From NCBI GenBank assembly GCA_947247005.1, contig OX365955.1, positions 15,047,322-15,111,321 of the forward strand: a stretch of 64,000 bases of DNA, in the 5' to 3' direction. The stretch comes from Spisula solida (lineage: Eukaryota > Mollusca > Bivalvia > Venerida > Mactridae). Positions 2,166 to 55,187 of the stretch are shown one piece after another (position 1 is the first letter of the stretch; the number at the start of each line of letters is the position of its first letter). The position numbers and the translations under genes were made by a program. The notes beneath the pieces were generated by a model. That model ran no database searches, was not told the origin of the DNA, and saw only the letters and a program-made list of their open reading frames with translations.

Positions 2166-2228
2166 ATCAAAATATTTCTAGATCTTAAATAGACGGTTAT
2201 AGTTAAATATAGATTCTATTTTTTTTAG

Positions 2229-3460
2229 GTCTGATAAACAACATGAAGAATCATCGATCGTACATGGAGAGTATAAAGTATGCGTTACAAACAAAACTTT
2301 CAGAAGAATTGAATTCTACTCACAAAGACATAGACACACATACGCCTGTGTCCATACTTACAGACACGCCTAAACCTCTTGGTTATGAAAGAGCAGCATT
2401 TCTTCAACATGCATGCAGCAGTTATACCAAAACAAACACTCAAGGTGGAAGAGTTCGTGTTAGTTATGACCCAACGTTTAAAGTTCTATATTGTCCCCTG
2501 TGTAAAATAGCCTCAACCTTTTGGACTCGTGCTTTCAAAATGGCCAAACTAAACTCGGATGGAAGGTCTAAGAAAGTAGCAACACCATTTGGTGTGCCGA
2601 TTTCTCAAGCACCAAAGAGTACGTTGTATTATGATAAAAGATTAAAAACTGTAACTGGTTTTGGGGATGCAAGTAACGCCTTCAAATTCCTCGTAGTACG
2701 GAACCCTTTTGGAATGTTGTTTTCAGCATACGTTGATAAGATAGTGGGCCCTAATCCAGTGTTTTGGAAAGAATTTGGAAATCCGGCAGTTAGATTTGCC
2801 AGACATCGCCATAGTGATATGTGCGGAAGTGACGTCACGTTTGAGGAGTTCATACGCTATGTAGGATACGTTGGTAAATCAGGCAGGCTGGACTGTCATA
2901 TTGCTAAGTTTGATGCTTGTCAGCCATGCCAGATGAATTACACCTACGTGGCAACCATGGAGACATTCAAAGATGACACGATTCATATTCTTAAACTACT
3001 TAACCAGACGGAAACACTCACAGAATTTGAAAATACATTTTCTGATTTACATGCTAACGACGCTATCGATGACTCCGTTTCCGGCCCATTTTCTTGGAAA
3101 CCCCGTATTACCCAATGCATTTCATGGCATGAAGCTCTTCAAGGAATATGGCGGAAGCTTCAAATGCGAGGGGTTATTGCTAACCAAGAACCGTTCCCTT
3201 TAACTGAAGATGAATCGAAAAACGTTACACGTACGGAGTTTGTAAATGTCTTACAGACTGCAAGAAAAAGATCTACTGTGAATAATAATCAAAAGAGAGA
3301 AGCGTATTTGAAAGAATTCAGACAAGTACCAGTTGATGCTTTAGACGCTGTAAGAAAAGTGTACGAGCAAGAATTCAAACTGTTTAACTACGATGATCGT
3401 CCGAAGGAAATATTTGATCGCGACGAAACACGAAAGGCAGCTTTTGTGTATCATGTTTAA
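2229..3460 (+). CDS. Carbohydrate sulfotransferase, catalytic exon (HNK-1/CHST8-14 family)
   Basis: The exon follows a T-rich acceptor (ttttttttag) and codes about 410 residues to the TAA at 3458-3460; joined to 12-111 the protein is 443 residues. Family landmarks in order, numbered on the joined protein: the 5'-phosphosulfate-binding stretch YCPLCKIASTFW at about 121-132 (the family form is P-K-V-x-C-x-x-W); the 3'-phosphate-binding stretch FLVVRNPFGMLFSAY at about 187-201; and the C-x-P-C-x-x-x-Y...ET motif (CQPCQMNYTYVATMET) at about 264-279. These assign it to the Golgi sulfotransferases that move sulfate from PAPS to a sugar hydroxyl on glycoprotein or glycosaminoglycan chains. The acceptor sugar cannot be told from sequence. 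The usual Pro-Lys of the first motif is Cys-Pro-Leu-Cys-Lys here, so Lys is kept. The catalytic part is a single exon. There is no neighbouring paralogue in the window. Confidence 0.88.
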
Positions 3461-7705: not shown

Positions 7706-7785
7706 CAGCCCGGGTGGCTCAGTTGGAAGAGCACCTGACTTGAAAGCGGGATGTCGCAGGTTCGAGCTCCGATCAGGGTAAATAA
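7706..7785 (+). mobile_element. tRNA-like SINE head (box A and box B)
   Basis: Box A TGGCTCAGTTGG (a perfect fit to TRGCNNAGYNGG) is followed 33 bases later by box B GGTTCGAGCTCC (one extra base). The anticodon stem does not pair, so it is a tRNA-derived SINE promoter or tRNA pseudogene rather than a working tRNA gene. Confidence 0.55.
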
Positions 7786-8979: not shown

Positions 8980-9327
8980 TCATTCACCGATATTTGAATG
9001 TCTCTTTTCGTTTAGATGAATGCCATTCATTTCACCGATGATTGATTTTGTATCGATTTCCCCCGACGGCGAGTTCGGTTTTGGCGATATATCGATATCA
9101 ATCGTGGGTTTGTGGTTCAAGTCACTTTGACTGAGTGGTTCTGCCATCACTTTGTCTGCGCATGCCTGGACGACCAAGAACGAATATCGGATGTCCTCGG
9201 ATGTCGTCCGTTCTGCGCATATGGCCAGGCGCAGGAAGTAGATGTCACGTGCTATGGCGGGTATTAAATAAATTCGACCGTCGGCAACCAGTTCTTCGAG
9301 CAATTTTTCGCTCAAAACATTATCTCC
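8980..9327 (-). CDS. DDC: Decarboxylase exon 13 and C-terminal tail
   Basis: Residues 413-527, [20 protein letters not shown] onward to ...KRHSNIGE and TGA. The C-terminal domain ends near residue 480; the remaining 45 or so residues are polar and Ser/Asp-rich, without a motif I recognise. Tyrosine decarboxylases also tend to carry C-terminal extensions. Confidence 0.93.
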   Translation of the reverse strand, partial: GDNVLSEKLLEELVADGRIYLIPAIARDIYFLRLAICAERTTSEDIRYSFLVVQACADKVMAEPLSQSDLNHKPTIDIDISPKPNSPSGEIDTKSIIGEMNGIHLNEKRHSNIGE

Positions 9328-12300
9328 CTGAAAACGTAGCACATGATTAGTATTTAGTTTTTTAAAATTTATTTTCTCCTACAAGTTGTTAAAAACACCT
9401 ACCGACTACATAGGCGGTGTGTTTAGACCGTTCGCATCAAGGAACGGAAAATTAGATCCAAGGCCGCGCCAAAGTCGTGCAAAATGATACTGGTATTGCT
9501 CCATTGACGTTCTACCTAACAGCACATGTAACAGCTGTAGGGAATTTCTGCTTTGTCCGGTGTCAGGATAATGTGACGGGGTCGGTCGGTCGGTCGGTGA
9601 TAGCAAAAGGAATGCATGTTGGTTTTATCTAGTTTACGAACAGTATAATAATTGAAGGTTCATACATAATTTACAAAGACTCAAATTCTGTTTAGAGCTG
9701 TTTTCAGCAAATTCAAAGCCCCATATTCACTACAGTATATACTGATATCGGACCAGTAGCCGAACAGTACCAGTATCCGAACGATCGTTATTTCTCCTCT
9801 CCTGTATCTCTTCAGAAGAGGGTTACTTGTTTGTTTTGGAGCTCTAACACATGAGTATGCTTCGTGTAAAGTGTATTTACCTAAATAAAAGTATTAACAC
9901 AGAAATTTTACTTTCTTTATTACCCCACCCACTTTCTGTTTTATTTACATCTGAGGGATTCCGAACGACTCTCGTATGCGCGCACAAATCTTTCCCCATT
10001 GGCGCCTTTAAACCAGAGGACCTCTAAAAAGTTTCTTAAAATGTTTATTATGCATTAAAATAGCTTAATTGAAATAAATAAATCTTAAAAAATGGACAAA
10101 ACCAAGAAATTTTACCGTTTGAAACGTGTATCAGATCTGCGCCACATGTTTTAGTCAATCAAGGGAAATAATCCTAAAATTATAATTTGCAAATGGGTAG
10201 ATTAATCTCCCTTGATTAAAGAAAATTTTGTATTAGAGTGCCGTTATCATTTACGTGAATATAGTGAATATACATTGAGTAGCTGCTATGAATCTCATTT
10301 CATGATTATGAAAATTTACACTGATGATAAACTGTACCAAAGTGCTTCTCCGATGGATTGCACTATGTGTTAATTTAGTGCACGAGATGGTGTACGGTTC
10401 TAGTACGGTACGAGTCGGCAAATAGTCACACACATTTTGACAAGTGATGGGAAATCTAGTAAGGGTTATTTACATTCTTTAAAAAAATAGGTCATATTTT
10501 AGCTATAAATGTCGTTTAATCGGCCGATGAAGCATCTGTTCGGAAACTGGTACTGTAGACTAACCAATTAGCGCTAAATAGTGACCCCTTTGGAGTCCTT
10601 GTTTTAGGACGCATGCGCAGACGAGACTGGAGTTGTTTACATTTCTAGAAGGGGGAAAGGCTTAAGTTTATAAAATCGCCGATTATTTTTGTAAACAAAC
10701 AGTTTTTAGAGTAAATTCAGTGCAAACCTCCATTTTTGTTGGCTACTGGTCCGATACAAGTAGTGTAATTATAAACAGTCAAGCAATTTTCTTTATCGGC
10801 AGCTTTGTAGAAGTGTGCTACGCAGCATGTTTGCCTTCCCCATACCCCCGCCCTCGCTATCCTAGCCCCGTATCAAGCCTGTGCCTATCCTCCGAATTCG
10901 CTAATCTAAAAAAAATGTTAAAAAAATAGGTTTGATTCGCTCTAACTTCTCTATGTATGTACAAGACCTTACCTTAAGTCTGAAACAGACCAGACCCATG
11001 ATGACATCGGTCACAATTTCAAACCGACCATCGTCCAGCACCATTTGTTCAAACTCATGGGCCAATCGACAATGCTTAAATATAGAATAATTATATGCAG
11101 CAGATATCCTGTATTTTATCATGTACTTTTAGAACTTGTCAGAATACAATGAGATTATACTTATAAACATTGAGAATGAAATACTGTTGTGCGTTTTTAA
11201 ACGTACTGAGTATATACACCAACACTTACGTTACGAATGTATTTCTGTATTCCTTCCACACCGTATGATCTCAGCATGAACCACAATTTCAAAGAACGAA
11301 ACCTTCGTCCCAATGGAATCTGCCAATGCTATAAACACAGCAATACATTTTAGCTATGCATATATGACAATACCAATATAGATACTGTATAGCGGGTATA
11401 TTTCGCGGGGGTCTAATTTTCGCTATATTCGCGGTTTACATCGATAGCGCAAAATCTAAACCCAGCGAAATATTTACCTCGTAAATATACAAATTTTACA
11501 AAGGGAGACAAGTCATGATTAAAAACATTGAAGAAGCAACCAGAAAAAAAACTTGATGACTTTGCAATAAGTGCGTCGGTTAAGCAAAATAGGGTAAATA
11601 CGCCAATAAGACTAATAATAAATAACGAAATATAATTCGAAATTAAAATGTGTGTATACTCTTTGCATGTGTACGTACATCATGTTTTCTCAACGTTAAA
11701 GGTGTTAATTATAAGCAGGTGTATCAAACCTGTTGAATTTAACGATTTTATTTGCAAAACGTGTAAATGTTTGCCGAAAAGTATTTTGTCTGTGTACATT
11801 TTCTAATGATAGTTAACACGGCCATCGAACAAACCGTTCAGAATAACAGTATCTGCATATCTGAAGCGTTGATTTGATTTTGCGTGCATGAAAAATAATA
11901 ACATAGCGTATCGTCAATTATAAATTGTCGGACTTGTTTAATTAATTATTAATTATGGACTATGATAGCAATATGGGACTTGTGAAAACGTGCGTATATT
12001 CGCAATTAATCAACACTAATTGTCATTACGCCCGGTTTTCTTACAATATTGCATTTAAGTTTTAAGCTTTATAAATTGCCGTTTTCAGCAATCTTACCTT
12101 ACGTAAGATTGACCTCCAATTCCATGTTTACCAACCAGGTTTTAAATTCGCGGTCGAGGTAGTTTGCGCGAAATCAAGACACCGTGAATTCAAAAGGATC
12201 CAGATAACGCGAATAATGGACCCCGTGAAATATACCCGCTATACAGTAACTAGTTCATACATATTTTAACGTTTACTTATAATGATGCTGACCATAGTTC

Positions 12301-15300
12301 AACTAGAGATCGCTAAAACCTTCAATAGTTCAACTAGAGACCGCTAAAACCTTCAAGAGTTCAACTAGAGACCGCTAAAACCTTCAAGAGTTCAACTAGA
12401 GACCGCTAAAACCTTCAAGAGTTCAACTACAGACCGCTAAAACCTTCAAGAGTTCAACTAGAGACCGCTAAAACCTTCAAGAGTTCAACTAGAGACCGCT
12501 AAAACCTTCAAGAGTTCAACTAGAGACCGCTAAAACCTTCAAGAGTTCAACTAGAGACCGCTCAAACCTTCAAGAGTTCAACTAGAGACCGCTAAGACCT
12601 TCAAGAGTTCAACTAGAGACCGCTAAAACCTTCAATAGTTCAACTAGAGACCGCTAAAACCTTCAAGAGTTCAACTAGAGACCGCTAAAACCTTCAATAG
12701 TTCAACTAGAGACCGCTAAAACCTTCAATAGTTCAACTAGAGACCGCTAAAACCTTCAATAGTTCAAACTATGAACGAACCAACGCTAGATCGATTTTTC
12801 TCAAATTGATTCTTGAAACTACATAAATGCGAATTTTGTTTGACTACTGGAGAAAGCAGACATGGTGAGATAATCGAACCAGCACCATACTATAGTTAGC
12901 GATAACCCAGCAATAATGTATAATTGGGTTCGTGTCAGAGTTGATGTATAGTTCGAAGGTATTGACACGATCCTAACCTTTATGCATGAATATATTGCAA
13001 GGTTCTTGCGTTGAATATATCAATTTCCGCGAGCAAATCGTGCAATATCGGTCCTTAAGATTTGTGTTTGTAGTACACTTCGAGCGTCTTAATGATACTC
13101 AACAAGGAAATAATACGGGAAGGTCGAGGGTCGTGTCAAGTTCTTTGAACCATTCTAATACCCACCCTGTAGTCCGGGATGTTTCCCTCATTCTTATGTC
13201 GTAGATATATCGGGTCCACATTAAAGGCATCCACCAACAGTCGACTGTCTTGTATCCTAGAAATGTCATAAACTATTAGAGTGGTTGCAAAATAATCACC
13301 GCAACCTCCCTGTGCTCAATGAATAAGAAACAAACAACTTTTATATCTACATAATTATACCACCGAATACAAATTAAGGGCATTTTTAAATTGAATAAAT
13401 CGATTTGTTAAAACGCAAAAAGTGACCTAAATATACACATTAACGTAAAAACAACTCGTATAGTTGTGTATTTTTATTTCCACATGACAGGACACATTAA
13501 TTGCTTTGCATGTGCCACATGATCACTGCCGTTTAGAATTGTAATGAACTGAAGATCTCGTTGCATTTTGACTATTCTGCATTTGAATGTTTTTTTCTTT
13601 TCTGGTTTAAACAAAGAAATTTCATTTTAAGACTGCACTGACTTTGTTCTATGTGTAATATACATGTATTTGTCGAATGTTTATGCACTTTGTAACGTGC
13701 ACCTTTTATAAGGAGAATTTTAATGTGGGATAAGTCTGTAAACAATGGCTGTTGCCCAATCCTATTTCGTTAGAAATAAACTAGAACATTATATATTTAA
13801 ATCAAGATCCGCATGAGACCGTAGCTAAATGAAGGTTTGGAAAAAAAACCTACATGTCCGACCCTGTATTAGAATCACAGTATACATATCATATCATAGA
13901 ATAAGCAAGTACTATTTTCATATTTTCAGAAAAAACGTTTTCTATAAATATGATTATATACATCTTTCCATGAATGCTGAAAGCATAGGCGGTCAGTACT
14001 GCCCAGTTAGGATAAGAATAAAGTGGTGCAGTGGTCGAATCCACTATCACTGTGTAAAACCGTGTAAAACCAGTCACAAAGGCTAATCAAGACATCTGTA
14101 ATTTCAATGCTAAACTAAACTACTATATTCGCTTAACCTGTTCATACTACGTATATGGTTGTAATCTTATGTGTACACAGGAAGAGAAATGGCACTGTCA
14201 CATTATCCTAACTGGACAGTACGTAGCTAATATGGTCATAAAACACTTCTCACAGCAAATTCAATTTTACCATTTGTCTACTCAGACAGAACATGCTGTG
14301 AACTGATCAGTACACTTGTCTCTATCCCATATCAGATATCTGACAAACTGATTTTTTTAATTAGTCAAATGCAAAGTTCCATGTGGTGGACAAGTGGTCC
14401 AGTGGTAAGAGCTACTGACTGCTGATCCGAAGGTTGTGGGTACGTACGATACCGCCTCTAGCCAGATTAAAACAGAAACACTTTTCACTGATTTCCACCT
14501 TACACAACATAACTAACTTACAGTCTTTCGGACAACACGTTAAGCGAGGTACCGTGTATGATGCTTTACACCAGGCACGTAAAAGAACACGGGATGCTTC
14601 TGGAACTGAGGCATATTGTGCGTAATGCACTATCCCCCCAAAACTAGAGTGAATTACCCCTTCTGGGGACCTCGCCCTTATGGATTTCCGGTGGCGAGGA
14701 TAAATAAAAGCACATAAATCAAAAGTTCCAGGTACCAGTATGTAGCTTATACATTATACTAAGGGTAATATCACCAATGCAATCGTTACATACAATTGTT
14801 TCACAAGTCCGATTCATGACAAAAACACTAATTGCCAACCCAACCCATGTCTTTAGGTTGGGAGTGGTCGAGGGACACCACAGGTAGGACAGGTAGAAAT
14901 ATGTCCTTGCACAGATGAGTGTCCGGGTAAAGTTCTAGGAATTAAGGGTAGAAATATGTCCTTGCACAGATGAGTGTCCGGGTAAAGTCCTAGGAATTAA
15001 GGGTAGAAATATGTCCTTGCACAGATGGGTGTCCGGGTGAAGTCCTAGGAATTAAGGGTAGAAATATGTCCTTGCACAGATGGTTGTCCGGGTGAAGTCC
15101 TAGGAATTAAGGGTAGAAATATGTCCTTGCACAGATGGATGTCCGGGAATTAAAGGTGCTGCCTCATAGATCGGGCTAAAAATTTTGTATATCGTGATTT
15201 TTCAACCTTACCAAGTATTGATGTAATAGAAAGCCACTGACAATTGCTTAATGAAAGATTTGGTGCAAATAAGCAATTTTAACAACTCTCGAAATCGCCC

Positions 15301-18300
15301 ACCGAGTATTTTTTTCTTGAAAAAAGCGCTAAGTTTCCTTCCAACATGCTTTGTGAATTATGTAATTCACACGTGATCGAACTGTAACATCAACAAAATA
15401 CAGCGTAAACATCAGTGAGGTATTTGGTTCGATTTTCGATTCCTTTTCATCAAATGCGAACACTTTTCAGGCAATTTAAGTAATATTCTAACACGATCTG
15501 CGGATTAATCCATTAAACATAGAGCAGACAATGCCATGTATTATTACCGCAATAAAACATGGTATCAAATTGGCTGTTACTATTTACGCCCCGTATCACG
15601 TGACCTATTTATGAATGAATGAACGTAAACTTTATAGTAAATCTTTAACGGACCCGACTCCGACCGCGTGTTGCACAAGTATCCAGTGTTACAGCTACGA
15701 CGCATCTATTTTTAGAAACTCCAATAAACTCTCGAAATTAAGATTCATAAAAACTTCTGATAATCAATTCATTTATATTTTTCATTTCATGAAATAGATA
15801 CACTGCCCTACTCGTGTTATTAAAATTGTTTCAATGTTTAAAATGTGTTATTTCCTTTAGAAAATTACGAAGGTCGTTTTCATTAACGAGGGAGGTAATT
15901 GTACCAGCTAATAAGCCACTCAAGTTCACCGTGGAATTATGTTAAATGTCAAATGGGTGAAAATGCAATGCGCGCAGTTAAATACCGGGTAAAGTCTTAG
16001 GAATAAGGGTAGAAATATATCCTTGTACAGATGGGTGTCCGGGTAAAGTCCTAGGAATTAAGAGTATGTCATTGTACAGATGGGGTTCCGGGGATAATCC
16101 TAGGATCTCAGGGGGAGTATTATTTCCGATTAAAGAATGACACGTGTAAAGGTAAAATAAGATGTGGAAGGGGGTAATTTGAACATTGGCTTACCATAGT
16201 ACAGACAGGTCGAACGAAATCAGCATCCATTTATGTGGATTCATTGAAAATGTTTGTGCGTACTAAAACAAAACGTTAAATATGATAACTCCGTTGCCAT
16301 GGCAACAGCGTGATGACTATTCCAAATAAAGAAAATATCATAATTATAGTTACACGTTTTATTTAGGATAATGGAACATGTTACTAAATGAGAAGTCGTT
16401 AATCAACAAACAAGGCAATCATTCGTGAAGAGAAACGTAATATCTTCAATTCAGTTAACAATTTCCATAGTGAAACAATCCATCGATTTAAACAACTCCG
16501 CTGAATAATTATATAAACAATCTCCATGACAGCTGCTCATTAGTGTCTCTTCTATTAGATACACAGGGGCGTGGTACTATCTAGTAATTGAATGTCACTA
16601 CATTAACACTACGTTAATCACTGATCTTATCTATATAGTACGGAATTCGATTCAAGCCATCGCCTTAAAATTGTGGCAATCTATAACGCGAGATCAAAGA
16701 ACGTACGATGAGGAAACGAACACGACAGTATGATGACGGAAATTCGAAAGTAAGATGACGAAAGTACGATGACAAAAATACCAAAGTACGACGATGTTGA
16801 AAAAGCGAAAAAAGTACAATGGCGGAAAAACGAAAGTTCGATGACAGAAACACGAAAGTACGATGACGAAAACACCTTAGTACAGTGACGAAAACACCTA
16901 AGTACGGTGACGAAAACACCTAAGTACGGTGACGAAAACACCTAAGTACGGTGACAAAAACGCGAAAAAACGTAAGAACGATGATTTACTATCGTAGTAA
17001 ATTTGCATCATCGTACTCTCGCGTTTTCGTCATAGTAGTTTCTTATTCACGTTTTTCGTCATTGTACATTGTTGTTTTTATCATTGTACTTTGGTGATCT
17101 TGCGCTAAAGATTGACACATTCAAAGACGATAAGTACCTCTACTCCTTTCATATAATGCCTGAACTCAGGACAAACAAAAGCACTTCCGGCGTACGCAGC
17201 GTCTATATGTAGCCACATGTCGTTTTCTTTGCCTAGAAATATAGATTTGTATAGGCTATGTTTTGGCGCTTACTATAATCTGGTCTGGTTGGAATATCTG
17301 AGCATGTCTGGGGTCTACATACGGGTGTGTGAAGCTGGCAGTCCATTGTCAAATGTCCATTCTAGCTGTCCATCATTGAATTAGAGATTGTTCTCTAATT
17401 CATTATTGGACAACTGTCCACTGTTCATTCTAGCTGTCCATCTAATTAAATATGCTGGACAACCGTCCACTGTTCATTCTAGCTGTCCATCTAATTTATT
17501 ATGCTGGACAACTGTCCACTGTCAATTCTAGCTGTCCATCTAATTAAATATGCAGGACAACTGTCCAAAGTAGCTGTCCATTCTGAATGTCCATCCTGGC
17601 TGTCCATTCCTATATCTGTTCAACTGTCCATCTGTATTAGTCATCGCTGTATTTATATAAAAAATATACCAACTGGCCATTGTAGCTATCCCTTCTGAAT
17701 GTCCATTCTGGCTGTCCATTCCTATAATTGTTCAACTGGTCAACTTTGGTATTTGCTTTTATATCACAAATATACCAACTGTCCAATGCAGCTGTCCATT
17801 CTGGCTGTCCATTTTGGCTGTCCATTCTGAATGTCCATTCTGGCTGTCCATTCCTTTGATTGTTCAACTGGTCATCTTTGGAATTTGCTTTTATATCACA
17901 AATATACCAACTGTCCAATGCAGCTGTCCATTCTGGCTGTCCATTCTGGCTGTCCATTCTGAATGTCCATTCTAGCTGTCCATTCTGACTGTCCATTCTG
18001 GCTGTCCATTTTGGCTGTCCATTCTGGCTGTCCATTCTGAATGACAATTCTGGCTGTCCATTTTGGCTGTCCATTCTGGCTGTCCATTTTGACTGTCCAT
18101 TCTGAATGTCCATTCTAGCTGTCCATTCTGAATGTCCATTCTGGCTGTTCATTCTGGCTGTCTATTCTGAATGTCCATTCTGGCTGTCCATTCTGGCTGT
18201 CCATTCTGAATGTCCATTCTAACTGTCCATTCTGGCTGTCCATTCTGGCTGTCCATTTTGGCTGTCCATTCTGGCTGTCCATTCTGAATGACCATTCTGG

Positions 18301-21300
18301 CTGTCCATTTTGGCTGTCCATTCTGGCTGTCCATTTTGACTGTCCATTCTGATGTCCATTCTAGCTGTCCATTCTGGCTGTCCATTCTGAATGTCCATTC
18401 TGGCTGTTCATTCTGGCTGTCCATTCTGAATGTCCATTCTGAATGTCCATTCTGGCTGTTCATCTAATTAGATATGCTGGACAACTGTCCAAAGTAGCTG
18501 TCCATTCTGGCTGTCCAAACTGGCTGTCCATTCTGAATGTCCATTCTAGCTGTCCATTCTGGCTGTCCATTCTGGCTGTCCATTCTGGCTGTCCATCTAA
18601 TTAGATATGCTGGACAACTGTCCAAAGTAGCTGTCCATTCTGGCTGTCCAAACTGGCTGTCCATTCTGAATGTCCATTCTAGCTGTCCATTCTGGCTGTC
18701 CATTCTGGCTGTCCATTCTGGCTGTCCATTCTGGCTGTCCATTCTGAATGACCATTCTGGCTGTCCATTTTGGCTGTCCATTCTGGCTGTCCATTTTGAC
18801 TGTCCATTCTGAATGTCCATTCTAGCTGTCCATTCTGGCTGTCCATTCTGAATGTCCATTCCGGCTGCCCATTCTGAATGTCCATTCTGAATGTCCATTC
18901 TGGATGTTCATTCTGGCTGTCCATTCTTGCTGTCCATTCTGGCTGTCCATTCTGGCTGTCCATTCTGGCTGTCCATTCTGGCTGTCCATTCTGGCTGTCC
19001 ATCTAATTTATTATGCTGGAAACTGTCCACTGTCAATTCTAGCTGTCCATCTAATTAAATATGCTGGACAACTGTCCAAAGTAGCTGTCCATTATGAATG
19101 TCCATCCTGGCTGTCCATTCCTATATCTGTTCAACTGTCCATCTGTATTAGTCATCGCTGTATTTATATCAAAAATATACCAACTGGCCATTGTAGCTAT
19201 CCCTTCTGAATGTCCATTCTGGCTGTCCATTCCTATAATTGTTCAACTGGTCGTCTTTGGTATTTGCTTTTATATCACAAAAAAACCAACTGTCCAATGC
19301 CGCTGTCCATTCTGGCTGTCTATTTTGGCTGTTCATTCTGAATTTCCATTCTGGCTGTCCATTCCTTTGATTGTTCAACTGGTCATCTTTGGAATTTGCT
19401 TTTATATCACAAATATACCAACTGTCCAATGCAGCTGTCCATTCTGGCTGTCCATTCTGGCTGTCCATTATGGCTGTCCATTCTGAATGTCCATTCTAGC
19501 TGTCCATTATGACTGTCCATTCTGGCTGTCCATTCTGAATGACCATTCTGGCTGTCCATTTTGGCTGTCCATTCTGGCTGTCCGTTCTGAATGTCCATTC
19601 TGGCTGTTCATTCTGGCTGTCCATTCTGAATGTCCATTCCGACTGTCCATTCTGAATGTCTATTCTGAATGTCCATTCTGAATGTCCATTCTGTCTGTCC
19701 ATTCTGTCTGTCCATTCTGAATGACCATTCTGGCTGTCCATTTTGGCTGTCCATTCTGGCTGTCCATTCTGAATGTCCATTCTGGCTGTCCATTCTGAAT
19801 GTCCATTCCGGCTGTCCATTCTGAATGTCTATTCTGAATGTCCATTCTGAATGTCCATTCTGGCTGTCCATTCCGGCTGTTCATTCTGGCTGTCCATTCT
19901 GAATGTCCATTCTGGCTGTCCATTCTGGCTGTCCACTCTGGCTGTCCATTATTGCTGTTCATTCTAAATGACCATTCTGGCTGTCCATTTTGGCTGTCCA
20001 TTCTGGCTGTCCATTCTGGCTGTCCATTCAGAATGACGGCCAGAATGGACATTCAGAATAGACAGCCAGAATGGACAGCCAGAATGGACAGCCAGAATGG
20101 ACAGCCAGAATGGACAGCCAGAATGGACAGCCAGAATGGACAGCAAGAATGGACAAAATGGACAGCTAGAATGGACATTCAGAATGGAAAGCCAGAATGG
20201 ACCGCCAGAATGGACATTCAGAATGGACAGCCAGAATGGACATTCGGAATGGACATATAAAATGAACATTCAGAATGGACATTCAGAATGGTCAGCCAGA
20301 ATGAACAGCCGGAATGGACATTCAGAATGGACAGCCAAAATGGACAGACAGAATGGACAGCCAGAATGGACAGCCAGAATGGTCATTCAGAATGGACAAT
20401 CAGAATGGACAGCCAGAATGGACATTCTGAATGGACAGCCAAAATGGACAGCCGGAATGGACAGCCAGAATATGCATTCAGAATGGACAGCCAGAATGGA
20501 CAGCCAGAATGGTCATCCAGAATCGACAGCCAGAATGGACATTCAGAATGGACATTCAGAATGGACATTCTGAATGGACAGCCAGAATGGACATTCTGAA
20601 TGGACAGCCAAAATGGACAGCCAGAATGGACATTCAGAATGGACAGCCAGAATGGACAGCCAAAATGGACAGCCAGAATGGACAGCCAGAATGGACATTC
20701 AGAATGGACAGCCATAATGGACATTCAAAATGGACATTCAGAATGGACAGCCAGAATGGACAGCAAAAATTGACAGCCAGAATGGACAGTTGCATTGGAC
20801 AGTTGGTATATTTGTGATATAAAAGCAAATACCAAAGATGACCAGTTGAACAATCATAGGAATGGACAGCCAGAATGGACATTCAGCATGGATAGCTACA
20901 ATGGACAGTTGGTATATTTTTTATATAAATACAGCGATGACTAATACAGATGGACAGTTGAACAGATATATGAATGGACAGCCAGGATGGGCATTCAGAA
21001 TGGACAGCTACTTTGGACAGTTGTCCAGCATATTTAATTAGATGGACAGCTAGAATTGACAGTGGACAGTTGTCCAGCATAATAAATTAGATGGACAGCT
21101 AGAATGAACAGTGGACGGTTGTCCAATAATGAATTAGAGAACAATCTCTAATTCTAATTCAATAATGGACAGCTAGAATGGACATTAAACAATGGACTGC
21201 CAGCTTCACACACCCTCTACATACACTAAAACACATATTAGCGTCTGCGTAGTTTCAAGATGGCTCAGATTAAACGAGAACAAAAGTTGTTTCGACCATA

Positions 21301-24300
21301 ACTTAACCACGGACAGTTTTCGCAGTCACTAAATGATCTATTGTGACTATGGTTAGCGCCAAAACCCAGCCATATTAAGCTGCATTCGTTTGATTTTTTT
21401 GTAAACACATTTGTACATGTAGTATACTCAGCCACTGGGGTATAGAACAGAGCTATTGGAATGTTAGACATACTGTTGTTTATTTCATTACGTCGTTAAG
21501 CTTATCGCAATTCAAGAACTCGCTAGACGTGTTGAGTTGAAGTGTGATGTGTATTCCTACAATAACATTGTCTTGATTCACCTACATACTCAATTTTATT
21601 TAAAACATGATTACACTTGCAACGTTGACGTTTTTTATGGGTGGCAATCGAAATCAGGTATTTATTTTTAAAAACGACAAAATCAAAAACATAACAAACA
21701 CATTTCAGGAAAAAGAGCATCTTTAATTCAAAAATCAAATTAGTCACTGAAGCAGTTACAAGACATTGCATTCGTACCATCCCTCTTACCAAAATAATCA
21801 GTAACGCAACCTTATGCTTTTAACATTGATAAAATGTCAATATAAGATCGCATGCCATACAAGGTAAGTATGTATGTGTCCAGAAAATAATAATTTGTAA
21901 TGTATAACTAGCGATAATAAAATTGGTTATCTGATTTCTAAATAATTAGTAAATTATTCTGTAGCTGTGATATCATTTTGGCTGAAGAAAGACAACTGCG
22001 TTACACTTTAACGTTCGGCTAAAATCTGATTACCTCCCTTACTACCACATACTTCATCCCTGGACCCATGGAGGCAGCTTTTCTTATTGAGACGGATAAA
22101 GAGCAAACTTCTTGAAAGATGAAGTATATTAACTATGCAACTTACATATAGGACCAAGCTCATCTAGATTATCGAAGGCACATGACCCAGTCGTTCCAAG
22201 CGAGGCACATAACTATCAAACAATAAGAATATGTCATGGTTTGTAAACATTTGTGATTCTTGTTGCATATGTGTATGTCACAACTTCAACGGATCTCGAC
22301 GTCAGAACAATCCGATTACCGAGCTGCTCTGTGCTGATATTTATTACGCATCTTAGTGGACAAGTTAAAATTTTTGACTTAGGTAAAACAAATTCCGATG
22401 TGCTTATTTTCCACATATTGAAGACCATGTTTTCTCAATAGTTATAGTATCTCTCTAAACAATGCATAAACACTATGTAAGAAATTAATATTCTTAATTG
22501 TATGACATGTATTTAGCAGACACACATTAAAAAAAAAAAGTCTTAGTTTTCTAATGTTTTATAAATACCGATCCTGATATCATGGTCACGAGCAGTTTGG
22601 ATAGTTTCATGACGTAAACTATTCCGACAAGAAACCAATACTATGTACATAATCTCCAAAATGGCCATTTGGCAATAAATTAATGAATCGAAATGTATGA
22701 AGATAAGGTCGGTGCGTACAAAAGCGTATGAAGATGAGGTCGGTGCGTACAAAAGCGTATGAAGATGAGGTCGGTGCGTACAAATGCGTATGAAGATAAG
22801 GTCGGTGCGTACAAATGCGTATGAAGGTGAGGTCGGTGCGTACAAGAGCGTATGGAGATGAGGTCGGTGCGTACAAATGCGTATGAAGATGAGGTCGGTG
22901 CGTACAAATGCGTATGAAGATGAGGTCGGTGCGTACAAATGCGTATGAAGGTGAGGTCGGTGCGTACAAGAGCGTATGGAGATGAGGTCGGTGCGTACAA
23001 ATGCGTATGAAGATGAGGTCGGTGCGTACAAATGCGTATGATGATGAAGTCGGTGCGTACAAAAGCGTATGAAGATGAGGTCGGTGCGTACAAATGCGTA
23101 TGAAGATGAGGTCGGTGCGTACACATGCGTATGAAGATGAGGTCGGTGCGTACAAATGCGTATGGAGATGAGGTCGGTGCGTACAAATGCGTATGAAGGT
23201 GAGGTCGGTGCGTACAAGAGCGTATGGAGATGAGGTCGGTGCGAACAAATGCGTATGAAGATGAAGTCGGTGCGGACAAAAGCGTATGAAGATGAGGTCG
23301 GTGCGAACAAAAGCGTATGAAGATCAGGTCGGTGCGTACAAAAGCGTATCAATACAGTACATGGTTAATCGAAATTTTACGAATATTAAAACGAACAGCT
23401 TAATGTACACTAAACAAAACCAAACAACAATCTTACGAAGAACGGGATTTTTCCAGCCGCCTTGTCTTTTTCTACAGCTTCCCTGAGTGTTTCTGCTTGA
23501 AGACTAAACTTCTCATCTGTAGGTAGTTTCACCATAGAAACGGAACCTAGTAATCCTGATCGATGAACTGAAGAATTGCCCTGAATATGCGATCAATACT
23601 CCTTAGAATAATAAGGTTCTAACTACAAAATTGAATCTGAGAAAAAAACTTTTAAAAAAGCAAACGCTGTCGGAAAACTTCTATTTTCTTTGCGACGAAA
23701 AACTGTCTCTTCATATTTTCAAAATAGGTTTATTGAAAGCGCATTGTATTGCAGATATGTTCTGATGTATAGGTCCTGTAAGGTACATGTAGTAAGTCAT
23801 TGTGTTCGTTCTTGCCATATGTATATATTATTTTGTAAATCTGCCATATTTATATGTTATTTGTAAATGACCTAAGGTAATAATGTTCTTACCTTTTATG
23901 CCATTACACTTTGAACTGGTAAATCATTAAGAAAACCAGGTAAAAGTCCTTAATTTGAATAATATCATTCTTGTTTTACAACTAAATCATATCAGTTGTG
24001 ATGTTACTTGTAAATCCCTCACTACACACATATCGAACCTTGCAAAAATGACCTTACCTGATCGGAACAGTATCCAACAAGTTTAGACAAGATGGTCACT
24101 TCATCAAGCTCTGAGTATTGTTGTTTTAGTTTAGTCACCATTTTAGTTCTGGCAGCCATCAGACACAACAGAACTGATTCGCTTGCAGTTGTCTGTAAAT
24201 AATTGAGAATAAATCATAACTTACATCGGGTATAGCATAAGTATTATCTAATTTGGATAACAGTTTCTGTTGAACCATAAACAGAGCGGGCAAACATTAT

Positions 24301-27300
24301 CTGGTATGATGAAACAGCTTATGACGCAGTTAGTTTATAATAATATATTTCAGGTCGAATTTGAAAAAAGTTTGTCTAACTTATATTAATGACTATCGAC
24401 ACTTCATATCCATCGCCACAGGGGTATGAGAGGATAGAGGCCAGTTTCCAGCTTATGATGAACGGCTTACAAGGGTATCCCTGGTATCAATTACATTCCG
24501 CATTTGAAGCGGACGCTCTACCACTAGGCTATCGAGGAGGCGGTATGAAGCAGTTGGTTTAGTGCTAAACACTTTCGTTGTCATATAGGGACCACACGAG
24601 CACATCCACTTATTTGTTGCCTAGATACAGTCACTGTTGTAAACTGGTATAAAACTAATTCAGAATGGTTTAGGTAATAAAATTATGTTATTCATAAAAA
24701 AAATGCCATGACACAATATGATTATAATATATAACATAATTATGCATTACCGATTTCACGACATAATCAGAATGAATGTACGTTTAAACACTGGCACTCA
24801 ACCAGAGAAACAATTTTATAAATAGCTCAAGCCTATAATCATATTTATAGCGGACAATACGCAGGCCGCAAGGCCTGCGGATGTCGTTCCGCTTTACGAT
24901 AACACGTGTGCACGTGGTTTGGTCAGAGTTTGAATTTACTAATGGATCTAAAAAGTTGTCTTAAAATCCCGCACTGAAGCAAAGATACTAGAAAATGGCT
25001 ACTAATAGAATAACAAAAAAATTAAAATGCGATATTCGGCAGCTCATAAATTTTCTTTTATTTTTTAATGATGTTTAAAAATATTCCAAAAACTAGCGTA
25101 GGTCCCTGTCTAGAAAAGAAAAGATAATAATTATCAGTCTTCCATGGTTGCTATGCAACCAATCTTTTTATATGGGGAGGGCTATTTCCTAATATTTGGA
25201 CACAAAAAAGGCAGCCATTTTTTTGCCCACTTCGGAAGGAAATTTTAACATTTTCAGTGCATAAACGATGCTACAAACTGTTATGAGACACATGATTACT
25301 CTGAGATAACGAAGTAAGCCGAGCGGGAAATGTTCATATGCGCGAAATATCAACCAATCTTAAGAAAATCTAATGAAAAAGACACAAGTTTCGGATATTT
25401 CCCATCGCAAAGTTTGCAATACAATTAATTAATTAAAGTCCGTTTCGGGTATTTACGTATCTAGACCGGACGGTGATAATCCCCATCGTAGTTGTAGGTT
25501 ATTGTAAAGAAAGTAAAACAAATGCATTTTCGTAATTCCTCACCGAGATGTAATTAAAAAATCCCTCCAAAATCGTCAAAAAATATTCGCAGGATGAAGG
25601 TCGCGAAAACTAATTACATGTTGTTGTTGTCGTTATTGGATACAATAAAACCCGTAATTTTCCGTCCAAATCTCTTTTATGTTGTGACGATTTGCAGGGT
25701 TTATTTAACGAAAAAAGGTGATTAAGATTAAAGATGTTTGATATTTAATCGTAATATGATTAATTGAAATGAAAATAGACTTTTCTTTTGAACAAAAGTA
25801 CTATCTGATATGCTCATGCAACCCACTAAAAAAAGATAAAATATCAAATAAGTCCTAGAAATCAGTTGTTATCTGTGTTTGTATCTAATTATTCATTTTT
25901 AAATTAGTTACCCCTGAATTAAGTAGACCTAGAATTAAACAAATTCAAAAACGTGTATTATTCGTGTTCATTCGGACTGACAAACGATAGCAGGTTTGTA
26001 TCGTCTTTCGTTACTTTGTACCCAATATTTCGTATCAAACCGCTATCGCGCGCTTTCTTGTGCAACAAACCGCTTCGATAGGTTGCATAGACGTAGGAAA
26101 GCGCTCGGTAGCGCCTTTTGGAAACGGCTTGCTCCAGATTCGTAACTTCGTAACAATTTTTTGTGAAGTTATGCATCACCAAAAAATCCAGTACTAGATG
26201 AGCATGTTACAAATAATGTAGGACAACTGACATCGTCCGCTACATATGCTGTGCATTAGTTCATATTAGAATAGATTATAGGCCACAGCTATTAAGAGAG
26301 TGTCTAGTCAAGTGCCAGTGGTTCAAAACATACATTTATGAGCGGCATCCACTATAGCATATACCTCTGTTCAACAACACAATGTATTATCCTATAATAG
26401 TCAATACTAATATTTCTACACAGTAGAGCTTTAACCTCTCGATCTCATCCTTCATTTGCACATACACAGCGATGTATCTTTAAACAGGTTGCATTTTATG
26501 TGAGAACATGTACCTGAATAACGCCCCCGCCTTTGCCTTGTTGTTGATGGAGAAATTGTTTCGGCAGTCCAATCATCTTGCCCAACCAGTTTGTAGTGAT
26601 CATTTCTAGCTCCGTACATGCCGGACTTGCAGCCTAGTGAAAGCAACAACATGTTTACTTATGTAATAAGAAGCTGTGTGTATGCTCTTCGCCGGAATTT
26701 AGTTTCTACTTTGAAGAAACAAGTACTGTAGCTTTGATTCGGACAACTTTAACTGTAACGAAACATATCGAATCATCTTCTTAAAGCATTTTTCAGAAGA
26801 CAACAGTCAGAGTTAATCACATTGCCTTGAACTGGATTTTGCTAAACTAGTTTACTTCTGGTGGGTACATAGATTCAAGAATATAACTGCATTGTGGAGT
26901 CACAAGCTGATTGATTGTCCCGAATCCAATATGTAAATGGTCATTATGTTGGCTTTAACCAATAGCTAGTTACAAGGGAAAGACATTTAAAAACTCAATA
27001 AACAAAGGAAAACTGTAACTCTAAGTATTACCCAAGAAAATCCTATGCACCCAATGGCGTCAGACAACATGTCACCAAGAATGGATGGAAAGGAATTTCC
27101 GGCAGCATAGTAACCATGAAAATGTGGGCTGTGCCAATGTGTTATCTGAAAAATATATATATTTAATAATGTATCATTGTCCGGGCTTTGTAAAGATGCT
27201 GTAGACAGTTATCGTCCGTCTAACATTGACCACATGTCATTTCTATCGGCGGTGGTTCAACTGGACGACTTGCATAGACAATGCTGAATATTTTACCTAG

Positions 27301-42914: not shown

Positions 42915-43937
42915 TAAATCGTTAATTTAGGTCAGTAAACATTGCATTTTCCTTTATCAGTGTCTTCTTTTCGCAGTTAATGTACGTATAAATGGATTAA
43001 TCAGGTCGGTCACTTGAATACATAACAATGTTTATATAAACATTGCAAATTCTCGTATTAATGTATTATTTTAATATATAGTTTGTGTATTAGTATACGG
43101 CTTTATGAATAAGGTATTGATTTTCACTGTCCTTTTCTCAAAATAAAATGTTTAGAACTATAAAATGCCTTAAAAGGACAATGTTATTATATTATATATT
43201 ACAGTGTCTGTATACAAGTGACAGATCTGATTAAACGGACTATATGTATGAGCATGTTTCTTATTGAATAATGTATTGATTTGCTCTGCCTGTGTAAGTC
43301 TCCCATTGACTGTTGGAAACAATAATGCAGGTGTATTTTGAAATCAAATGTTTTCTCTGCACAAAGTATAATTTACGGGGTGATTCATAATATCTGTCAC
43401 ACTTTTCAAGTAGACGGTTTTGATATGTCTGAGTATTACCACAAAAGGGTAATTAATCCAAAACGCATGTATGACGTCATGGTGTCAACATCGTTCCTGT
43501 ATCATATTTACATTATATAAAGCTTTCATGTGATATATGATACATACATTCAGTTTATTCAGATCTGTCACTTGTATACACACATTGCAATATTGTAACA
43601 TTGTTTTTTTATGGTTTTAAACATTTTGTTTGGAGAAAAAGCAGTAAGAAGCAATACATTATTCACTAAGCCACACACTAAGCCACACACTAAAACATAT
43701 ACTCGTATATTAATGTTATAATGTATATTACAACAAAACATTAAAAAGAGAAAATATGTTGTTTATATACACAATGTTATGTTAGCACTGGCTACGGAAT
43801 TCCATTTTAAAGGGGTAATGTGTTGCATTCCTTCAGTATAATAATGTATAGAGCGATTTTGAATGGATCGACTGCTATGGTACTTAATGGGTAAAACTTT
43901 AAATTCCTGTAATTTAATACACATATTATCAATGCAG

Positions 43938-46891: not shown

Positions 46892-48085
46892 GTGAGGATG
46901 GCAGGCTAGCGGCGTGAAGTTTGCAGCCTGGTGGCCTAGCTGCCAACTTCACGCTGATAGACTGCTAGACTGTCAACTTCAAGTATATACATGCATCTTT
47001 CGATATAACAGGACGATGTGTCCTTGATCATTTTTATGGATGTCCAAACCAAGTAATTGGGGGCAAATATATTTGCCCGTGTTGGTCCGTCCTGTCGTGC
47101 GCACCCACATGTAGGTGAGGGGTGTGGAACAATAGGCTATATTTGGATTCTATTCATTCCGTTGCTTACGGGGTGCAAAATGTTGCTTATGGGGTTTTAC
47201 AAACAAAAGAAAGAACAAAAGAAAACCCCACAACGTCAAGTCAGTGAGCCCGTCCGTCCGTCCGTCCGTCCGTCCGTCCGACCGTCCAAAAATGTAGCAT
47301 CGTTTGTAACCAGACCACAAAGTATGCTTCCTAGGTATTTTAATCAGCATGAGTTGTTGTACACCTATACATATTTACGGTTCCGACAAGTATTAGCTGT
47401 GTTATATTGTCCTAGAAATGATGCGCAATTTTGCCTGCAACTTGAAACCTAATTGTACTACGGACTTCAAACATCACATGAATAGTAGTCACCCTCAGCT
47501 TATGTTCACCAACATATCTCTATTCTGATCCAACAGTATTAGCAGAGTTATGGCCCTTGTCCAAAAAAGAAAGTTTACAGAAAATTTGCGCGTGTATAGA
47601 CGAAAGTCGTAAGTTTCTTCTGTGACGAATTTCAAGATTTTAACTTTAATTGCATTATTTTGCCCGTGATGCCTATTCGTAGTAAAAACGACGTTTTCAC
47701 GATGTCTGCCCTTCTGACGTTTCCCGTCTTGCACCCTTTCTTTGAAACTATTGATTACATTTGCCAATGTGTCTTAAACGATATCCATACCTTCTCTTTT
47801 GGTGTTCCTTACGAGCATAGACGTGTATGTTGGCTTACGATTGTACACTAGCGATTCAGAAAGCACATATACTCAATCCGTTACTTGCCTATGTTAAACA
47901 AGTTCATTCCTAGGTGAATTCCGCAGATGATTTATTGTTTTCAATGATGCATTGTTCATGCAAGATGTGCCAGGTATGTGTTTGAAGTTGGCAGCCTAGC
48001 AGCCCAGCAGCCCAGCAGCCCAGCAGCCCAGTAGCCTAGCAGCCTAGCAGCCTAGCAGCGTGAAGTAGGAAGCCTAGCAGCATGT
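46892..48085. repeat. Repeat region bounded by cross-related 'agcctagcagc' segments
   Basis: 46892-46985 is a hairpin-forming segment (agcggcgtgaagtttgcagc ... gctgccaacttcacgct). 47979-48085 holds a 9-bp tandem (cagcccag/cagcctag) with the same gcgtgaagt and gaagttggcagcctag words. Between them lies a copy of the 8012 repeat (47150-47260) with a (CCGT)n tract at about 47250-47287. Confidence 0.55.
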
Positions 48086-53057: not shown

Positions 53058-55187
53058 GGCTACATAACGACAGAACACCAATACGTGGGCACCATAACGG
53101 CAGAACACCAATACGTGGGCACCATAACGACAGAACACCAATACGCGGGCACCATAACGACAGAACACAAATACGTGGGCACCATAACGACAGAACACCA
53201 ATACGCGAGCTACATAACGACAGAACACCAATACGCGGGCTACATGACGACAGAACACCAATACGCGGGCTACATAACGACAGAACACCAATACGCGGGC
53301 TACATAACGACAGAACACCAATAGGCAAGCACAATAACGACAGAACACCAATACGCGGGCACCATAACGACAGCACACCAAAACGCGGGCACCATAACGA
53401 CAGAACACCAATACGCGGGCACCATAAAGACAGAACACCAATACGCGGGCACCATAACGACAGAACACCAATACGTGGGCACCATAACGACAGAACACCA
53501 ATACGCGGGCTACATAACGACAGAACACCAATTCGCGGGCTACATAACGACAGAACACCAATACGCGCGCTACATAACGAAAGAACACCAATACGCGGGC
53601 TACATAACGACAGAACACCAATACGCAAGCACAATAACGACAGAACACCAATACGCGGGCACCATAACGACAGCACACAAATACGCGGGCACCATAACGA
53701 CAGAACACCAATACGCGGGCACCATAACGACAGAACACCAATATGCGGGCACCATAACGACAGAACACCAATACGTGGGCTACATAACGACAGAACACCA
53801 ATACGCGGGCACCATAACGACAGAACACCAATACGCGGGCTACATAACGACAGAACACCAATACGTTGGCACCATAACGACAGAACACCAATACGTGGGC
53901 ACCATAACGACAAAATACCAATACGCGGGCACCATAACTACAGAACACCAATACGCGGGCTACATAACGACAAAACACCAATACGTGGGCACCATAACGA
54001 CAGAACACCAATACGTGGGCACCATATCGACAGAACACCAATACGCGGGCACCATAACGACAGAACACCAATACGCGGGATACATAACGACAGAACATCA
54101 ATACGTGGGCACCATAACGACAGAACACCAATACGTGGGCACCATAACGACAGAACACCAATACGTGGGCACCATAACGACAGAACACTAATACGCGGAC
54201 ACAATTACGACAGAACACCAATACGCGGGCACCATAACGACAGAACACCAATACGTGGGCACCATAACGACAGAACACCAATACGTGGGCACCATATCGA
54301 CAGAACACCCATACGCGGGCACCATAACGACAGAACACTAATACGTGGGCACCATAACGACAGAACACCAATACGCGGTCTACATAACGACAGAACACAA
54401 ATACGCGGGCTACATAACGACAGAACACCAATACGCATTTACACCATAACGACAGAACACCAATACGCGGGCTACATAACGACATAACACCAATACGCGG
54501 GCTACATAACGACAGAACACCAATACGCGGGCTACATAACGACAGAACACCAATACGCATCCACACCATAACGACAGAACACCAATACGCGGGCTACATA
54601 ACGTCAGAACACCAATACGCGGGCTACATAACGACAGAACACCAATACGCAAGCACAATAACGACAGAACACCAATACGCGGGCACCATAACGACAGCAC
54701 ACCAATACGCGGGCACCATAACGACAGAACACCAATACGTGGGCAACATAACGACAGAACACCAATACGCGGGCTACATAACGACAGAACACCAATACGC
54801 GGGCTACATAACGACAGAACACCAATACGTGGGCACCATAACGATAGAACACCAATACGCGGGCTACATAACGACAGAACACCAATACGTGGGCACCATA
54901 ACGACAGAACACCAATACGTGGGCACCATAACGACAGAACACCAATACGCGGGCTACATAACGAGAGAACACCAATACGTAGGCACCATAACGACAGAAC
55001 ACCAATACGCGGGCACCATAACGACAGAACACCAATACGCGGGCACCATAACGACAGAACACCAATACGTGGGCACCATAACGACAGAACACCAATACGC
55101 GGGCTACATAACGACAGAACACCAATACGTGGGCTACATAACGACAGAACACCAATACGTGGGCAGCATAACGACAGAACACTAACC
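53058..55187. repeat. 30-bp minisatellite, about 71 units
   Basis: Unit cagaacaccaatacgcgggc plus accataacga repeats with a strict 30-bp step, with two main variants (acc or tac before ataacga; cgcggg or cgtggg). At about 54431 and 54560 slightly longer units (catttaca, catccaca) shift the phase. A higher-order period of 300 bp is visible (gcaagcacaataacg at about 53324 and 53624). Because 30 is a multiple of three, several frames on both strands stay open for 200-500 codons; these are not genes in my judgement. Confidence 0.96.

Follow-up and report, generated by a model that had tools for sequence, protein, structure and literature searches.

Foldback transposons of the Drosophila FB/FB-NOF type carry long arms of short repeats, make 9-bp target-site duplications and are very variable in size, and some copies have no middle. 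Their units are of 10, 20 and 31 bp, and the NOF transposase is known for some of them. Here we describe an element of related build in a bivalve. It lies in a stretch of 64,000 nucleotides from the clam Spisula solida (assembly GCA_947247005.1, contig OX365955.1, positions 15,047,322 to 15,111,321), which is called the window below; coordinates given without a locus number are window positions. The 932-Mb assembly was searched whole for relatives of the element. According to the results, the element very probably belongs to a foldback transposon family that is dispersed and non-autonomous and has minisatellite arms. Like the Drosophila FB elements, the family has repeat-built arms, 9-bp duplications and variable copy size, whereas its units differ in length and probably in sequence.

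Judged by the build of the sequences, the closest system to the clam family is Tm1, followed by Tetris and Galileo. Tm1 is a Mutator/foldback element of root-knot nematodes (Meloidogyne). Its inverted arms consist of a tandem motif of 13-15 bp, mostly 14 bp, with 1-9 units per arm, and arm length varies between and within elements (PMC3169594). Duplications of 8-10 bp, mostly 9 bp, are present in 45 of 53 cases, and empty sites were shown; the two ends carry unlike short terminal motifs, the copies are mostly non-autonomous, and a Phantom-type transposase of the Mutator-like element (MULE) group is known (PMC3169594). The clam family shares with Tm1 the composite arms of a short motif, the variable arm length, the mostly 9-bp duplications and the empty sites, and its unlike ends GGG/AGC recall the A1/A2 terminal motifs of Tm1. 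It differs from Tm1 in that up to 112 units are present per arm, the copies examined lack a middle, and none of the copies read was found to contain a transposase. The Tm1 Motif C CGATTCAGTATCCGC and the terminal motifs CGGTTAA/CCTACCC are, by eye, not matched by the clam ends or units.

Tetris is a foldback element of Drosophila virilis with 220-bp units in the arms, a middle domain and 8-10 bp duplications (PMC4079207). It is seemingly non-autonomous, and the autonomous copy was not found; allelic copies differ by one unit, and the repeats are related to the outer arm and are a source of longer satellite arrays (PMC4079207). Tandem repeats within the arms, similar duplications, variation in unit number and the failure to find an autonomous copy are common to Tetris and the clam family, whereas the clam units are of 13 bp rather than 220 bp and the middle domain belongs to Tetris. 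Galileo has long, internally repetitive arms of 18 to about 1250 bp, a P-type transposase and tandem units of ~210 bp, some with extra transposase-binding sites (PMC3573991, PMC3688188). Its repetitive long arms, whose length follows unit number, are similar to those of the clam family, and the unit size differs. Rehavkus makes 9-bp and Phantom 8-10 bp duplications, and minisatellites are listed among their features; however, these minisatellites lie beside or within the transposase part and do not form whole arms (PMC6446971).

In the top-ranked literature listed, no mollusc, bivalve or invertebrate report of a foldback, MULE, satellite or inverted-repeat element of such build was found, and the word foldback has 0 mentions in the main text of a bivalve-transposon paper (PMC10294476). 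Six unit or end strings of the family had no match in paper text. Clam miniature inverted-repeat transposable elements (MITEs) with tandem repeats have reportedly been described and may be a precedent. Within a known type, the foldback transposons, the clam family is new, and it stands out by its array length, its record of in-place growth and its heterogeneous centres.

The window element and its dispersed relatives

The whole element (17323..21215, 3893 bp, by sequence and alignment) consists of two inverted arms with no coding middle. It is flanked by two copies of the 9-bp target-site duplication TCTACATAC, at 17314..17322 on the left and 21216..21224 on the right. The left end (17323..17349, + strand) and the right end (21189..21215, - strand) are identical over 27 bp in the alignment, and the exact complementary termini and perfect 9-bp repeat of the original prediction are both seen. 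The 20-bp end GGGTGTGTGAAGCTGGCAGT has exact matches at 17323-17342 (+) and 21196-21215 (-), and no third match is present in the window at up to three mismatches (mean for shuffled sequences, 0.00). The window was also scanned for inverted ends (length at least 11 bp, spacing 80-9000 bp) that are bordered by a direct repeat of 7-11 bp. The end pair of the element, many pairs inside its arms and two other pairs were recovered, the latter at 43217-43572 (self-complementary 8-mer) and 46941-47993 (7-mer).

When a query of 121 bases, which included the initial 98 bp of the element, was run against the genome, the best 40 of 153 candidates were scored, and all were significant. The end pattern is found 397 times genome-wide at up to three mismatches (199 forward and 198 reverse), compared with 15 times (8 and 7) for the reversed control pattern, and 42 exact ends are present among the 100 matches listed. 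Twenty loci were fetched whole, 14 of which have both ends. L009 is a fifteenth pair, as its right end was found further along (L029). For eight further pairs the ends were fetched first and then the elements, and the total is 24 pairs with the window copy included. A perfect 9-bp duplication is present in 20 of the 24 pairs, with 17 different 9-mers of 25% G+C; a 9-mer common to two random places of one locus was obtained in 745 of 2,000,000 draws. The terminal triplets are GGG at both ends in 12 pairs, GGG/AGC in 10, AGG/GGG in one and AGC/ATG in one. The first 100 bp of 36 end heads were compared with the consensus, and 35 differ by 0-5% and one, which is cut by the junction, by 14.7%. The tandem-repeat inverted arms, the duplications of ~9 bp at dispersed sites and the size heterogeneity caused by the arms are structural features of foldback elements. 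A mobile, non-autonomous foldback element had been proposed from the window alone, and other copies that share the ends but never have flanking duplications of 8-11 bp had been set beforehand as a refuting outcome; the dispersed copies share the ends and mostly have duplications of 9 bp.

Five loci (L010, L011, L012, L022 and L024) carry the element at one position within a larger dispersed repeat, and their matching flank pieces are 93-100% identical. The empty-site query of 111 nt was composed of the two flanks joined at a single AAAATAAAC. The best 40 of 148 candidates were scored; 35 span bases 1-111, and five start at base 2 or 3. All 12 fetched empty places (L046-L057) read flank-AAAATAAAC-flank with the 9-mer once, as the original prediction had required of an empty site, and the filled copies at the shared site have AAAATAAAC on both sides (three shown beside the empties; L010). 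The test concerns paralogous copies of the host repeat that carries sister elements, not the window's own site. Because the inverted ends match, the duplications at different sites are mostly of 9 bp, and the empty places have a single 9-mer, these results show that the family was inserted by staggered-cut transposition.

Three other explanations were considered with these data. The element may be an ordinary 13-bp minisatellite that was duplicated locally in inverted orientation, with no transposition; only one copy is present within the window, and a short near-palindrome forms its junction. The 397 ends genome-wide, the 17 different perfect 9-bp duplications and the empty places with a single 9-mer make this explanation extremely improbable, and for the family it is ruled out by the empty sites of the sister copies. 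Alternatively, the copies may have spread mainly by duplication of the carrier DNA rather than by transposition of the element, as the five loci at one site of the dispersed repeat would suggest. This is very unlikely, since 17 different duplications exist and carrier-DNA duplication is confined to that group of five among the compared loci. When 900 bp of flanking sequence on each side were compared, scattered repeats but no further shared insertion site were detected; this comparison covers 14 paired loci and the window, and the eight later pairs are not in it. Finally, Helitrons are not known to make inverted ends or target duplications. Satellite-like arrays are reported on Helentron elements of the Pacific oyster (PMC7492417), and a non-autonomous Helitron-type element with tandem core repeats, as in oysters, was considered on this ground. 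Its probability is next to nothing, as the Helitron/Helentron identity is ruled out by the 9-bp duplications and the inverted ends of the family.

Matches outside the genome are few. In viral contigs, the family end and two 13-mer units had 0 and 0 matches, and no match to the family was present in the plasmid collection. Three matches were obtained by a protein search with the satellite frame. One of them, P0001, decodes to the 13-bp unit CAGAATGGGCATT, which is one base from the unit of the family, on a metagenome contig of 1767 bp; a search with P0001 as the query returned only P0001 itself. The other two (28% identity) do not seem array-like.

Arms, arrays and centres

According to the strand split by k-mers and the unit counts, the left arm of the window element is ~2711 bp (17323..20033, +) and the right arm ~1.18 kb (20034..21215, -). 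The arms are thus unequal, and the switch of strand is located at about 20027-20034. Each arm opens with a head of ~430 bp, which holds 49-bp and 112/132-bp repeats. In the left head, Tandem Repeats Finder (TRF) detects 3.3 copies of the 49-bp repeat (17407..17567, +) and the 112/132-bp repeats (17558..17985, +); the right head (20790..21215, -) was defined by alignment to the left head. The 13-bp arrays, also from TRF, extend over 17923..20029 (+) in the left arm, where a second head breaks the array, and over 20029..20789 (-) in the right arm. The 13-mer occurs in two main forms, GCTGTCCATTCTG and AATGTCCATTCTG. Counted by an 11-bp core with up to one mismatch, 131 + units and 0 - units are present in the left arm, and 0 + units and 58 - units in the right arm.

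The second head is an inner copy of the left head, at 18990..19500 (+, approximate limits by self-alignment of the left arm). By eye, it has several letters and one extra block in common with the left head only. As these match the left head and not the right head, the inner head is probably the product of a duplication inside the left arm. The original prediction described the interior as one 13-bp unit that switches strand at about 20034. The switch and the strand order are confirmed, and the description is incomplete in that the heads and the second head are also present.

The elements with both ends range from 364 to 4756 bp and from 2 to 184 units. A single strand switch, + then -, is observed in all 14 paired elements and in the window copy. 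The largest arm has up to 112 units of the 13-mer, and the shortest copies (364-456 bp) consist of heads only with few 13-mers.

At the shared site, four copies are complete (L010, L012, L022 and L024). They stem from one insertion, and their lengths are 2944, 3155, 3297 and 4756 bp. Across aligned columns they show 96.6-98.6% identity. In the six comparisons between them, the gaps of at least 5 bp that are multiples of 13 number 8/11, 8/10, 7/10, 10/19, 13/17 and 6/9, where one in 13 is expected by chance and the six comparisons are not mutually independent. Because the same-site copies differ mostly by whole 13-bp units, these results show that the length changes took place in situ. As MINISATELLITE, the arms are arrays whose unit number rises and falls in place, as in a minisatellite, and the earlier proposal that the arms grow as satellite is borne out by these four copies.

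The centres behave differently from copy to copy. By a permissive BLAST comparison, with a library that included pieces of the window copy and L023, all 15 elements compared match arm sequence over at least 99.2% of their length, and no unmatched stretch of at least 20 bp is present. The L010 group has ~40 bp of other-looking letters at the centre. Strand-specific 10-mers were used to split 23 elements into their arms, and these elements represent 20 independent insertions, no two of which have both arm lengths in common. The splits of L062 (nested insert, consistency 0.60) and L065 (diverged, 0.45) are unsure. In several elements the break lies inside the head, for example 264/101, 394/70, 94/307 and 283/710, and array turnover cannot explain such breaks. 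Short dyads are frequent among the junction letters, for example TGTCCATGGACA in L014 and L063. The junction CTGTCCATTCAGAATG is common to the window copy and L058, which are indistinguishable by it, and this argues against fully private junctions. The 20 insertions come from perhaps 200, and repeated junctions could be missed at this sample size. We infer that the centre was lost or remade separately in each copy; from such separate loss, nearly every insertion should have its own arm lengths and junction. The central part would be lost when the long palindrome breaks or when the template is switched at short homologies.

The host gene and neighbouring repeats

The window element is located in a gene similar to aromatic-amino-acid/histidine decarboxylases on the - strand. 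The sequence supports an intronic location, as predicted, because decarboxylase exons flank the element on both sides. On the left, an exon at 17138..17232 (-) corresponds to positions 225-255 of the Pyridoxal_deC profile (1.6e-13 and 3.9e-13; splice sites by eye). Its AG acceptor is placed by eye at 17233-17234, and 81 bp of intron extend up to the left duplication of the element. A further decarboxylase piece at ~16.2 kb (-) carries NPHKW, which we take to be a decarboxylase motif. An open frame at 8980..9378 (-) contains the C-terminal exon of the gene (aromatic-L-amino-acid decarboxylase, 3.8e-12) and reached no Pfam family. On the right, an upstream exon piece (ASPACTELE) at 26550..26633 (-) corresponds to profile positions 73-99 (8.9e-7), and a decarboxylase piece at ~28.3 kb (-) was recognized by eye only, with no decarboxylase match in the profile search. 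Exons for profile positions 100-224 were not located, and the far edge of the intron is therefore not fixed.

A carbohydrate sulfotransferase frame is present at 2213-3460 (Sulfotransfer_2, 2.9e-28). Its nearest named relatives are from Mactra (62%) and Mercenaria (54%), which are heterodont clams; this points to a probable heterodont host and agrees with the mollusc host that had been proposed from the sequence. A weak tRNA-like match is found at 7708-7780, with 30.3 bits against the Rfam threshold of 29. Three minisatellites with differing units of 30-31 bp are located at 12296-12767, 22695-23349 and 53063-55182, the last of which has ~70 copies. A piece of 157 bp at 12943-13099 is 86-87% identical to the dispersed repeat that hosts the five same-site loci. 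A short element at 43209-43580 is probably a MITE; its inverted ends, TGTATACAAGTGACAGATCTGA, are of 22 bp after extension by eye.

A second family with inverted arms was observed at L025:1411-4103. The family is characterized by the ends AGCTGTGTGAAGTTGGC, a 10/54-bp satellite (CGACATTGGA) that makes up the arms, and a middle of ~1.1 kb; the L025 copy has one strand switch, + then -, and no 9-bp duplication was found in its flanks. A partial copy of this family at L019:7932-9901 has mixed strands near its end. In the window, GTGAAGTTGGCAG or near forms occur in the region 46940-48080, near 46955 (-) and 47979 (+), and also beside an 8-bp array (GCAGCCCA) at 47991-48059; they resemble the end of the studied family. 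Tandem arrays of ~38-bp units at L012:7445-8785 and of ~30-bp units at L016:3682-4316 contain GTGTGATGTTGGCAG or GTGAAGTTGGCAG-like forms in their units, which also resemble the end motif.

The source of transposase and the spread of satellite DNA

MULEs are defined by target duplications of 8-11 bp and long terminal inverted repeats (PMC6446971), and the clam family has 9-bp duplications and long inverted arms. Judging from the duplication length, the long arms and the analogy to known systems, the transposase would be supplied in trans by a MULE. The 13-mer and the GTCCA repeats may be repeated transposase-binding sites, which is a guess by analogy with Galileo. In the consensus end, GTCCA starts at bases 19, 26, 33 and 46 by eye. 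The spacing is 7, 7 and 13 bp, and array-like units thus begin near the end.

Fourteen MULE-domain matches over the cut-off are present in the genome (best 3.3e-7). Two of these loci, L066 and L067 (C11 and C2), have MULE-domain open frames of 526 and 776 codons. In L066-L069, five scattered 14-mers match the end core at up to three mismatches, and they are not convincing ends. In the 5 kb read of L066 and L067, neither inverted ends of at least 16 bp nor inverted ends with a duplication were found; ends beyond the 4-5 kb of such loci would be missed.

Two candidates for the autonomous copy were rejected. The interior of L009 (C3:46048399-46054204) is a nested long interspersed nuclear element (LINE), and its duplication ACTGAGAAC is intact. 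At L009:5535-7868, within this copy, LINE-like frames, a 2A-like peptide GDVESNPGP and an endonuclease-like frame are seen by eye. L062 has an extra middle of ~0.95 kb, which by eye bears its own inverted ends ACGAGGGATG.

Merlin elements, with an IS1595-type transposase, make duplications of 8-9 bp, and hAT elements of 8 bp. The mover may thus be a non-MULE transposase of the Merlin, P/Galileo or hAT type that makes duplications of ~8-9 bp. The autonomous copy was not found among the copies read, four of the 14 MULE loci have no convincing ends, and foldback build arises in unrelated superfamilies, as the P-type transposase of Galileo indicates (PMC3573991, PMC3169594). However, all 20 perfect duplications are exactly 9 bp, and MULEs or their outgroup include both Tm1, the nearest system by build, and the Rehavkus group with its 9-bp duplications. 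A non-MULE mover is unlikely, but its share of the probability is not small.

Several points weigh against a dispersed foldback family that is moved by a MULE. No transposase was recognized inside any copy read, and the 9-bp duplication alone is compatible with other superfamilies. Within the 4-5 kb read of each of L066-L069, which are four of the 14 MULE matches, neither 13-mers nor an exact copy of the end core were found. Five of the 20 whole loci (L011, L018, L020, L021 and L025) have one recognizable end only. The duplications are imperfect in L013 (8/9) and L060 (7/9), and the end pairs of L064 and L065 have none. One insertion, which was multiplied together with the host repeat, accounts for four of the 20 perfect duplications. 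The copies were sampled from the best-scoring matches, a choice that favours young, intact elements, and related families may contribute to the 397 ends.

A broader proposal is that one transposase lineage drives several foldback families, which would share the end motif TGTGTGAAGYTGGC and have arms of unrelated short satellites as expanded transposase-binding sites, each insertion being remade with its own centre. The 13-bp family and the 10/54-bp family of L025 would be two of them. This is possible, though we regard it as doubtful. If it is true, the genome holds a self-renewing source of dispersed, strand-ordered satellites.

It has long been asked how satellite DNA comes to be spread over many sites in a genome, and the clam family gives a clean test of this. 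The family has one short unit, a strand that is fixed per arm, many insertions with readable target duplications, paralogous empty sites and a unit-by-unit record of growth. The type of build of the nematode Tm1 is now seen in a bivalve, where an arm can reach about twelve times as many units. Because the centres differ between copies that are otherwise very similar, palindrome instability can be counted directly in an animal genome.

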